64,000 nt of DNA from Victivallales bacterium. GTDB taxonomy: Bacteria > Verrucomicrobiota > Lentisphaeria > Oligosphaerales > Oligosphaeraceae. The notes under the pieces are model-generated. The model saw only the letters and a list, made by a program, of their open reading frames with translations, ran no database searches and was not told the origin of the DNA. Both the position numbers and the translations under genes were made by a program. The stretch is taken from positions 1 to 64,000 of the forward strand of contig JAFXUD010000002.1 in the NCBI GenBank assembly GCA_017535315.1, given 5' to 3'. This document shows positions 48,338-51,501 of this stretch, piece after piece. How positions within the stretch are numbered: the stretch's first letter is position 1; every line of letters begins with the position of its first letter.

Positions 48338-49171
48338 ATGGCTCGCTTATTTCTATGTGATTTAGACGGGACGCTCATTCGTCCTGGGCACCTGCTTTCG
48401 CCGCAGACGCTAGCCATGATGGAACGTCTTGTTGCACAGGGGGACATTGTGGCGATAGCCAGCGGGCGTAGCTTGTATGCGGGGCGGAACATCCTGCGAC
48501 CAGGGATGCCGCTTTCCTACTGGCTCTTTTCCACGGGGGCGGGCATCCTGAAATGGGACACGCAGGAGATTGTGTGTCGAAACGAGCTGACTGCCGAGCA
48601 GGTGCGCTTTGCGGTGGAGTGCCTCCTGGAGTATCAAGAGGACTTTATGATACAGGGGCCTATCCCCGAAAACCACAAGTTTGTCTATTACAAGTTTGAC
48701 AGGCGGGAGAACGACGGCACGGATTTCTGGACCCGTTGCAAGGCCTATACGGGGTTGTGCGAATCCTTTGAACCGCGTGGCTATGAGTACCAGCCGTCAA
48801 GCCAGCTAATCGCGGTGCTACCGCCAGATACGGCGCGCATAGAGTGCATTCGCGCCGCCCTGAAGGGGTATGCCGTCGTCAGGGCTACCTCGCCGATGGA
48901 CAACCGTAGCGTCTGGCTGGAAATCTTCAATCCCGCCGCAGGCAAGGCGAACTCCGCGAAATGGTTGGCAAAACAGTGCGGCATCGCGCATGAAGACACC
49001 TACGCCATCGGCAACGACTACAACGACCTGGACATGCTCAAATGGGCCGCCCACGCCTATATCACTCCAAATGCTCCCGATGATATGAAGGCGATGTTTC
49101 CCGTCACGCAGGCGGACACCGACGGTGCCTTTCCCGAGGCCGTGCTGACCTGGTTAGGGGCTAGGGATTAG
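48338..49171 (+). CDS. HAD-superfamily (Cof-type) phosphatase
   Basis: A 277-residue HAD phosphatase, Cof/IIB-like. Motif I is FLCDLDGTLI (Asp nucleophile at about residue 7), motif II ASGRS, motif III within KANSAKWLA, and motif IV AIGNDYNDLDML. Family members dephosphorylate small sugar phosphates or FMN-like compounds. The final five residues and stop (LGARD-TAG) are encoded by heptad-repeat DNA, so the original C-terminus may have been replaced. There is no clear ribosome-binding site at the ATG. Confidence 0.87.
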   Translation: MARLFLCDLDGTLIRPGHLLSPQTLAMMERLVAQGDIVAIASGRSLYAGRNILRPGMPLSYWLFSTGAGILKWDTQEIVCRNELTAEQVRFAVECLLEYQEDFMIQGPIPENHKFVYYKFDRRENDGTDFWTRCKAYTGLCESFEPRGYEYQPSSQLIAVLPPDTARIECIRAALKGYAVVRATSPMDNRSVWLEIFNPAAGKANSAKWLAKQCGIAHEDTYAIGNDYNDLDMLKWAAHAYITPNAPDDMKAMFPVTQADTDGAFPEAVLTWLGARD

Positions 49172-49321
49172 GGACTAGGGGGCTACGAACGACGGGGGCT
49201 TTCGCCCCCCGAACCCCCCGCCGCTAAAAGCGGGCAGTGGCTAGGGGCTAGGGGTTAGTTATCAAGCTTGAGCGTTTTGGCTTCACAACTAATCACTAAC
49301 CACTAATCACTAACCACTAAG
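49152..49321. repeat. Heptad arrays between convergent genes
   Basis: GGTTAGGGGCTAGGGATTAGGG... begins within the last codons of the HAD gene (49152-49185); a related array follows at 49239-49260. Complementary ACTAACC/ACTAATC units lie at 49287-49321 and include the stop codon of the minus-strand gene. At least four G-runs in the first array could make a G-quadruplex. A separate GC-rich repeat (49187-49220) is nested in the middle. Confidence 0.9.
49187..49220. repeat. GACGGGGGCTTTCGCCCCCCGA-type repeat
   Basis: A short GC-rich inverted repeat, GGGGGCTTTCGCCCCC, followed by GAACCCCCC. The same unit appears twice, side by side, at 60035-60113. A CCGC-TAAAA-GCGG hairpin follows it here. Confidence 0.8.
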
Positions 49322-50852
49322 AAACCGTGGCCAGCCAGTCGGTGAACTCCTGAAGCGTCATAGTCTTGATGTGGGGATCGTCCTGTGCGATGATGGCATC
49401 GTTGGCGGTGCCATATCCCCATGGGGCGTAGATGAGCTTGACAGACTCCAGCTCGGGGTCGCTCTCCACAGAGAAGAGCGTCTTCAGCCTGTCCTCAATG
49501 AAATAGAGTGCCATGGGTTTCAGGCGAAGCTGCTCTGCAAGCAGGACTGGCTTCTTACGCTTGCGTTCCAGTCCGAAAATGTCGTCTTCAGGGAAGTCAA
49601 TGCCCGCATTTTTCAAGATGGCACTGACGAAACGCTCCTGTTTGGTGGTGGCGATGATGAAATGCGTACCACCTTTGCTTAGATTGGCCTTCAGGGCTTC
49701 TGCGACGCCTGGGTAGAGGGTGTGCCAGTCCAGCCAATTCTGCTGGTCTTCAGCAATCCAGTTGTCGCGCGTGGCGCCGAAAAGCTCAATGAGTTGCTGC
49801 TGGGTGAGGCTGTGCTCCGTCATAATGCGCTGGAAATGCTCGTTGAGGTGCAGCTCGAATTCGGAGATGGGCAGCTTCTCTTGGAGCATCTTCGTCATCA
49901 GGATGGCCTGGTAGCCTGTTTCAAGATATGGACGCACGGCACGGAAGGCATCAATGTTCTTCTGGGTGGGAAGGCGGCGATGGAAAAGGCTTGGCCAGAT
50001 CGTGCGCGCAGCCTTCCAGGCGGAGACAGCAGTTTCCGATGCACTGTCGCAGATGACGCCATCGAAGTCGAGAGCCACCACTGTGTTCGTGACGGCGGCC
50101 TTACCAGGGTGGTAGGTGCCGTTGTGCTCCTTTTGGATGATGCGGTATGCTGCCGCTGCCGCCTGTCGTTCAGCCTGCTTCTCGCTGGTGCCCTTGCCGT
50201 GGGCATAGTCGCGTTTGCCTACAATGACGCAGACCTCGAAAACACGCGCGTGGTCAGGCCCCGTGGTCGAAACAAGTTGGAATTCAGGGCGTCCGATTTT
50301 CAGTCCCTGGCAGATTTCCAGCAGGGCACCCTTTGGATTTTCTGTGAGAATCAGCTTCTTTTTTACCTCTTCGATGGGAGGGAGTAGTTTGAGGATAAAT
50401 TCGGTTGCCTCCTGAAGGCCGCTGTCTAGGTATAGGGCGCCGAGGAAGGCCTCGAAGAGGTCGCCGAGGATGGAATCACGTTCACGTCCGCCGCCAAGGC
50501 ATTCACCCTTGCCCAGCAGGAGTGCTTTGTCCAGCTCAAGAGAACGTGAGTAGTTGGCAGTGGCTTCCTCGTTGGCAAGGCAGGAACGCATACGGGTGAG
50601 CAGCCCCTCCTGCGCGTTTTTGTCCGTTTCGAACAAAAATGTCGAGAGGACGAGTTGCAGGACGGCGTCGCCGAAAAACTCCAGACGTTGGTTATCGACG
50701 TGGACATTCTCGTTTTCGGCCTTGTATGAGCTGTGGATCAGCGCCTCATCCAGCAATTGCGTGTTTTTAAAATGATAGCCCGCATTTTCCTGGATTTTTT
50801 TGCGTGCTTCAAGGAGTTCATCACCAGCGAGGTTGACATTCGAGCTTTTCAT
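49317..50852 (-). CDS. rnc: RNase III-dsRBD fused to a HAD phosphatase domain
   Basis: A 511-residue protein in one open frame. Residues 1-165 are the RNase III catalytic domain with NQRLEFFGDAVLQL (Glu58, Asp62) and DLFEAFLGALYLD (Asp131, Glu134). Residues 172-240 are a dsRNA-binding domain (NPKGALLEICQ...HGKGTSEKQAERQAAAAA). After a short linker, residues 257-511 form a HAD hydrolase: VALDFDGVICD (Asp262, Asp264), ATTK (Thr402/403), a Lys around 434, and FIEDR (Glu453, Asp454). The HAD part recalls a cyanobacterial HAD family (RPYLETGY, APWGYGTAN). Separately, rnc is usually 220-250 residues. The stop is within the heptad array. It is divergent from efp, 85 bases away. Confidence 0.92.
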   Translation of the reverse strand: MKSSNVNLAGDELLEARKKIQENAGYHFKNTQLLDEALIHSSYKAENENVHVDNQRLEFFGDAVLQLVLSTFLFETDKNAQEGLLTRMRSCLANEEATANYSRSLELDKALLLGKGECLGGGRERDSILGDLFEAFLGALYLDSGLQEATEFILKLLPPIEEVKKKLILTENPKGALLEICQGLKIGRPEFQLVSTTGPDHARVFEVCVIVGKRDYAHGKGTSEKQAERQAAAAAYRIIQKEHNGTYHPGKAAVTNTVVALDFDGVICDSASETAVSAWKAARTIWPSLFHRRLPTQKNIDAFRAVRPYLETGYQAILMTKMLQEKLPISEFELHLNEHFQRIMTEHSLTQQQLIELFGATRDNWIAEDQQNWLDWHTLYPGVAEALKANLSKGGTHFIIATTKQERFVSAILKNAGIDFPEDDIFGLERKRKKPVLLAEQLRLKPMALYFIEDRLKTLFSVESDPELESVKLIYAPWGYGTANDAIIAQDDPHIKTMTLQEFTDWLATVS

Positions 50853-50937: not shown

Positions 50938-51501
50938 ATGTACGAAGCATCAGATTTACGCAAAGGATTGAAGATTGAACTGGACAACGAACCCTACCTT
51001 ATCACCGAGTTTGATTTTTGCAAACCAGGCAAAGGGCAGGCTTTGTACCGCTGCAAATGCAAGAACATGATTTCTGGCGGCACGGTGGACAGGACTTTCC
51101 GCTCTGTTGACAAGATTGAGACTCCCGCCCTTGAAGAGAAGACCCTCACCTACTCCTACGAGGAAGGCGATAGCTTCATCTTCACAGATGAAAACTACGA
51201 GGAGATTCGCATCTCCCAGGAGCTTCTTGGCAACCAGAAGTATTTTCTGGATGACAGCATGGAGTGCACTGTCCTTTTCTTCCGCGACCGTCCCATTGAA
51301 ATCACGCTTCCCTACTTTGTGGAGAAGAAGATTGCCGAGACGGAGCCTGGGGCGAGAGGCGACACCGCCACCAACGTCACCAAGCCCGCAAAATTGGACA
51401 ATGGCTACGAGCTGGCAGTTCCGCTCTTTGTCAACGAAGGCGACACCATCCGCATCGACACCCGCACGGGTGCCTACGCGGAACGCGTCAGCAAGGCATA
51501 A
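50938..51501 (+). CDS. efp: Elongation factor P
   Basis: A 187-residue EF-P, which relieves ribosome stalling at proline runs. Domain I has FDFCKPGKGQALYR, with the tip lysine in PGKG at about residue 33 that is modified in many bacteria. TFRSVDKIE and the domain III end GDTIRIDTRTGAYAERV are typical. GGAGA precedes the ATG. No poxA/epmA-type modification gene is next to it. Confidence 0.96.
   Translation: MYEASDLRKGLKIELDNEPYLITEFDFCKPGKGQALYRCKCKNMISGGTVDRTFRSVDKIETPALEEKTLTYSYEEGDSFIFTDENYEEIRISQELLGNQKYFLDDSMECTVLFFRDRPIEITLPYFVEKKIAETEPGARGDTATNVTKPAKLDNGYELAVPLFVNEGDTIRIDTRTGAYAERVSKA

Follow-up and report, generated by a model that had tools for sequence, protein, structure and literature searches.

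The DNA analysed here, hereafter the window, is a stretch of 64,000 nucleotides from a Victivallales bacterium, and it raises the question of why a ribonuclease III (RNase III) should be joined in one polypeptide to a phosphatase: is the joint real and, if so, does the phosphatase act on what the nuclease produces?

Domain architecture of the fused protein

The fused gene is a minus-strand frame of 511 codons that begins with ATG and ends with TAA, and it lies between two plus-strand genes:

48338..49171, plus strand: Cof-type (HAD-IIB) hydrolase, a separate gene convergent to the fused gene (Pfam; in unfused relatives, homologues immediately follow the free HAD)
49317..50852, minus strand: whole fused gene, RNase III-dsRBD-linker-HAD hydrolase (ATG at 50852, stop ending at 49317; Pfam, NCBIfam, orthologous fusions)
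50337..50852, minus strand: RNase III catalytic domain, residues 1-172, with Glu58, Asp62, Asp131 and Glu134 (Pfam/NCBIfam, residue check, invariance)
50133..50336, minus strand: dsRNA-binding domain (dsRBD), residues 173-240 (Pfam dsrm, structure model)
50085..50132, minus strand: linker, residues 241-256, with 245-254 predicted disordered (pLDDT <50, variable length, dN/dS 0.32)
49320..50084, minus strand: HAD hydrolase domain, residues 257-511, C1-capped and phosphoglycolate phosphatase (PGP)-like (Pfam, motifs, model, Foldseek)
50938..51501, plus strand: elongation factor P (efp), divergent from the fused gene (gene context)

The preliminary description of this DNA had assigned an RNase III with its dsRBD, plus a HAD hydrolase, to one frame at 49317-50852; these coordinates are exact, with the strand, which it left unstated, being minus. 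The three domains are borne out by Pfam, which recovers Ribonucleas_3_3 at residues 31-157 (1.3e-33), dsrm at 173-237 (5.3e-15) and Hydrolase/HAD at 258-456 (9e-11) of the fused protein, and by NCBIfam, where the RNase III equivalog TIGR02191 scores 218.1 bits against a cut-off of 166.25. Each of the five fused proteins that were scanned has this equivalog complete, at 205-219 bits (cut-off 166). Every catalytic residue assigned earlier (E58, D62, D131, E134, D262, D264, T402, T403, K434, E453 and D454) was correct, and those of both the RNase III and the HAD are invariant in an alignment of eight fused proteins. Residues 1-240 thus match the bacterial ribonuclease III (Rnc, TIGR02191) in having the full RIII domain, the dsRBD and the four catalytic acids, whereas the fused protein adds a C-terminal HAD hydrolase. 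The dsRBD, with a net charge of +3 and a pI of 9.2, is the sole basic part of the fused protein.

The genome of the window encodes one RNase III, which is the fused gene, and a single HAD of the fused type; hence, both enzymatic jobs rest on the fused protein. An internal start yielding a free HAD product was considered and rejected: the only candidates there are GTG codons 258/259, which lack a properly spaced ribosome-binding site. Short repeats of the types GGGGCTAGGGATTAGGG and CACTAATCACTAACCACTAA occur between the fused gene and its convergent Cof-type neighbour, at window positions 49160-49320.

Recurrence of the fusion and selection on its parts

The architecture was searched for in 388 genomes of the phylum and 48 genomes of the order, the sampled relatives being largely metagenome-assembled genomes (MAGs). 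The in-frame fusion is present in 10 of the 29 genomes sampled from the window's family, spanning five genera (G000, G404, G165, G230, G225, G206, G405, G406, G407 and G264), which supplies the check that had been proposed with the preliminary description, i.e. the same architecture in relatives. Public records that carry it include MAGs obtained from the goat rumen (L067), the goat jejunum (L068) and the omasum of a water buffalo (L070), together with L071, L072, L074 and L087; the carriers constitute a single group of bacteria from guts and sludge. On inspection, long frames in G377, G393, G112, G106, G303 and G129 were found to contain no RNase III-HAD fusion.

The window and L067 share 91% protein identity, and comparing them gives a dN/dS of 0.062 for the RNase III, 0.071 for the dsRBD and 0.055 for the HAD, against 0.32 for the linker; between G225 and G206 the corresponding values are 0.05, 0.13, 0.15 and 0.34. 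These ratios indicate that strong purifying selection acts on both enzyme parts while the linker is free. Given the low values in the RNase III and the HAD, both enzymes have been kept functional. Counted on alignments, the linker ranges from 11 to 39 residues across the orthologues and is unconserved.

These observations bear directly on whether a frameshift, a missed stop or a chimeric assembly has merged two genes. In sister genera the two genes are adjacent yet separate, so a missed stop would mimic a fusion. However, the identical joint occurs in 10 genomes, several unrelated MAG projects are represented among the records, and dN/dS is low on either side of the joint within one frame; an artefact is therefore extremely improbable. 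The recurrence in 10 of 29 genomes, combined with a dN/dS of about 0.06 in both parts between sister species, excludes chance as well as a frameshift, which had been named earlier among the outcomes that would undo the proposal. The RNase III-HAD joint is real and has been preserved by selection.

Affinities, distribution and genomic context of the HAD domain

The HAD motifs, namely the DxD, T403, K434 and E453/D454, are invariant across 50 fused and free relatives. Compared with the Gph/PGP type of HAD subfamily IA, the domain shares the C1-capped fold and all motifs and gives weak matches to the PGP models. An identity as phosphoglycolate phosphatase was nevertheless rejected, as the best equivalog reaches only 35.2 bits against a cut-off of 225, and another 20.0 bits against 327. 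The HAD is a family distinct from PGP, and is unnamed by any NCBIfam or dedicated Pfam model.

Within the phylum, this HAD is found in the window's order and in one more family of the class, and it was not found elsewhere in the phylum among 195 sampled genomes. The order's remaining families have it as a free protein, separate from the RNase III gene (rnc). The preliminary description had likened the HAD to a family of unknown function from cyanobacteria and plastids. Among the best 80 matches to the HAD search, the closest outside relatives are free proteins of Methylococcales, Methylophaga, Thiotrichaceae and one Aquificaceae MAG, the nearest of them belonging to methanotrophs and methylotrophs of the Gammaproteobacteria, and none of the 80 is cyanobacterial. 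The HAD was detected in 4 genomes out of a sample of 185 from the class to which Methylotuvimicrobium belongs, and in the four methanotroph, methylotroph or Aquificaceae genomes where both genes were found, rnc lies far from it. A viral, phage or plasmid origin was considered and set aside, since viral contigs and plasmids yielded no relative of the HAD; among the phage matches listed, the best are confined to the RNase III part.

The genomic contexts of the free HAD are heterogeneous, and no substrate follows from them: they include pyrR-pyrB-pyrC-like genes, a polyphosphate kinase-peptide deformylase-GHL13 group, CoA ligase/HpcH aldolase genes, lpxA-like genes, Mla-like genes, and a MiaB-like gene plus a Cof-type HAD. 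The pyrR-pyrB-pyrC-like genes precede the free HAD at eight gammaproteobacterial loci (L086, L089, L095, L103, L135, L140, L141 and L143), with touching frames in L086. This context hints at a role in pyrimidine or nucleotide metabolism, although the other contexts differ. At five loci (L041, L042, L073, L092 and L090) the free HAD has a MiaB-like radical SAM/TRAM gene on one side and a Cof-type HAD on the other.

The phosphatase step acting on the riboflavin precursor often proceeds without a dedicated enzyme. As a candidate for the HAD it was rejected: no rib genes are found among the annotated neighbours, and the Aquifex enzyme that dephosphorylates the precursor is a histidine-family phosphatase (PMC12051542).

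Predicted structure and the question of functional coupling

The HAD is modelled with a pLDDT of 97.3 and displays a Rossmann-like core. Between motifs I and II, with strands at 3-7 and 142-147 on either side, lies an insertion of seven helices (17-120) constituting a C1 cap; the HAD is thus unlike the capless (C0) HADs, whose active site is not covered by a bulky cap. The best Foldseek matches, 2hi0, 2ah5, 2yy6 and 3mc1, are PGP-like HAD-IA phosphatases, with TM-scores of about 0.5-0.6. In the full-length model, two confident domains are separated by a linker whose residues 245-254 have a pLDDT <50, and the pTM is 0.54; with a disordered linker and this pTM, no fixed domain arrangement is supported.

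RNase III enzymes cleave double-stranded RNA and leave 5'-phosphate and 3'-OH ends. The N-terminal 240 residues are the organism's ordinary and sole RNase III, which as a dimer would cut double-stranded rRNA and mRNA precursors, leaving such ends on its products. One reading of the fusion is that it couples the HAD to RNA turnover: the HAD would strip the 5'-phosphates from these products, or dephosphorylate nucleotides or short oligonucleotides arising from RNA decay, with the tether channeling or modifying the products. The conservation of the fusion in 10 genomes, the intactness of both active sites and the pyrimidine-gene neighbourhood of the free HAD at the eight gammaproteobacterial loci speak for it. 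The modelled structure of the HAD points in a different direction. Capless C0 HADs act on macromolecules, whereas most C1 and C2 HADs act on small molecules (PMC11164532); this is a tendency, as the word "most" implies, and not a law. Given the C1 cap, the substrate of the HAD is likely to be small. The cap as modelled would weigh against the trimming of RNA ends, and not against action on nucleotides. Further, the HAD is acidic and gained no positive charge on fusion (mean net charge -6.5 in fused and -6.8 in free forms), it is free and unlinked to rnc in most relatives, and the linker is unconserved. Accordingly, we regard coupling to RNA turnover as unlikely. A still more specific version, in which the HAD acts on the RNase III output (5'-phosphates or RNA-decay nucleotides), so that the protein both cuts double-stranded RNA and alters the fate of the products, and in which linkage across seven genera reflects selection for coupling, appears quite unlikely. 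Of the interpretation first put forward for this locus, the genuine, conserved fusion with both active sites intact therefore stands, and its alternative, in which the HAD would clear small nucleotide-like molecules, may apply, while a link between the phosphatase and the RNase III products is not supported: the trimming of product ends is disfavoured by the C1 cap, by the usual separation of the free HAD from rnc, by the unchanged charge and by the disordered, unconserved linker.

Alternatively, the HAD might be a sensory or structural add-on, wherein the binding or turnover of a metabolite tunes the activity, stability or localisation of the RNase III. In a dimeric enzyme, a C-terminal domain attached to the dsRBD could indeed alter access to RNA. 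However, the model predicts no fixed arrangement of the domains, the linker varies between 11 and 39 residues, and the full retention of the catalytic motifs marks the HAD as something other than a degenerate binding module; we consider such a role very unlikely.

Two further HAD-bearing proteins of RNA metabolism offer comparisons. In plant chloroplasts, the rRNA-processing endoribonuclease YbeY is reported to be joined to a HAD-like domain, but YbeY is a metalloendonuclease and not an RNase III, and its HAD is of another type. T4 polynucleotide kinase/phosphatase has a HAD phosphatase acting on nucleic acid ends within a multifunctional RNA repair enzyme; its HAD is open, with a small cap, in contrast to the C1-capped HAD of the window.

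In the mycobacterial RNase HI-CobC fusion (MSMEG_4305/Rv2228c), whose CobC part is a small-molecule phosphatase, both domains are intact and under purifying selection and the linker is variable; the domains are functionally dissociated in vivo, the authors favouring drift (PMC7466739). This fusion has in common with the present protein an N-terminal RNase and a C-terminal phosphatase, the variable linker and the purifying selection. Pfam gives RNase III and HAD for the latter: it has RNase III instead of RNase HI, a HAD instead of a CobC-type phosphatase, a kind of histidine phosphatase, and belongs to Lentisphaeria instead of actinobacteria, making the two analogous and not homologous. In light of the C1 cap and of this analogue, which is without a functional link between its domains, independent action is considered the most likely. 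Thus, the protein probably joins two enzymes that work independently of each other, an RNase III and a small-molecule HAD phosphatase. The C-terminal 255 residues would function as a C1-capped HAD-IA phosphatase on a small phosphorylated metabolite, with Asp262 as the predicted nucleophile, Asp264 as the acid/base and the cap shutting over the site, and the two domains would act largely independently across the flexible linker.

In agreement with the preliminary description, no RNase III with a phosphatase domain, and no account of an RNase III-HAD architecture, was found in the open-access full-text literature, and the RNase III-dsRBD-HAD architecture seems to be undescribed. Few RNA enzymes are as conserved as RNase III, and we found no bacterial form described with a second intact enzyme. 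If RNA products or nucleotides did prove to be substrates of the HAD, the protein would present a new mode of RNA-end control; if not, the family would counsel caution against reading function from fusion, as does RNase HI-CobC.

Evolution of the fusion

The relatives of the window provide a natural series (unlinked, near, tandem and fused) for asking whether fusions reflect coupling or neutrality. The HAD gene lies directly behind rnc as a separate gene in G080 and G262, and in G189 and G282 efp stands between it and rnc; efp itself is the divergent neighbour of rnc in almost all of the family's genomes that were examined, with or without the fusion. In the unfused relatives L042, L041 and L073 the HAD is flanked by the MiaB-like gene and the Cof-type HAD, and in the window, too, a Cof-type HAD is found next to the fused gene (48338-49171). 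The passage from an unlinked HAD to one nearby, then in tandem behind rnc and finally fused might represent the steps to fusion. A free housekeeping HAD gene would have landed behind rnc, with the stop codon between them probably lost thereafter.

Trees were constructed for each domain and for both joined, and AU tests were applied to a single fused and a single linked clade. Neither was rejected (p-AU 0.097 and 0.231, respectively). In the joint tree, the fused G264 clusters with G189/G282, where the genes are separate, with support of 94/93; owing to this grouping, a fusion has either been undone or arisen more than once. Linkage of rnc and the HAD, whether fused, in tandem or near, extends over seven genera, and the fusion over five, and this retention could point to a benefit beyond chance. 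The fusion may have been kept through a constant need for both activities along with their shared expression, or through drift.

In genus g5, the RNase III has a low-complexity tail of 80-150 residues behind the dsRBD (L038:7998-8978, L039:7382-8347, L167:512-1678), at the place that the HAD occupies in other genera; this tail could be the leftover linker of a lost fusion. In other families of the class, a gene resembling iron-alcohol dehydrogenases is located directly behind rnc (L164, L165 and L166), overlapping it in L166, and is unfused.
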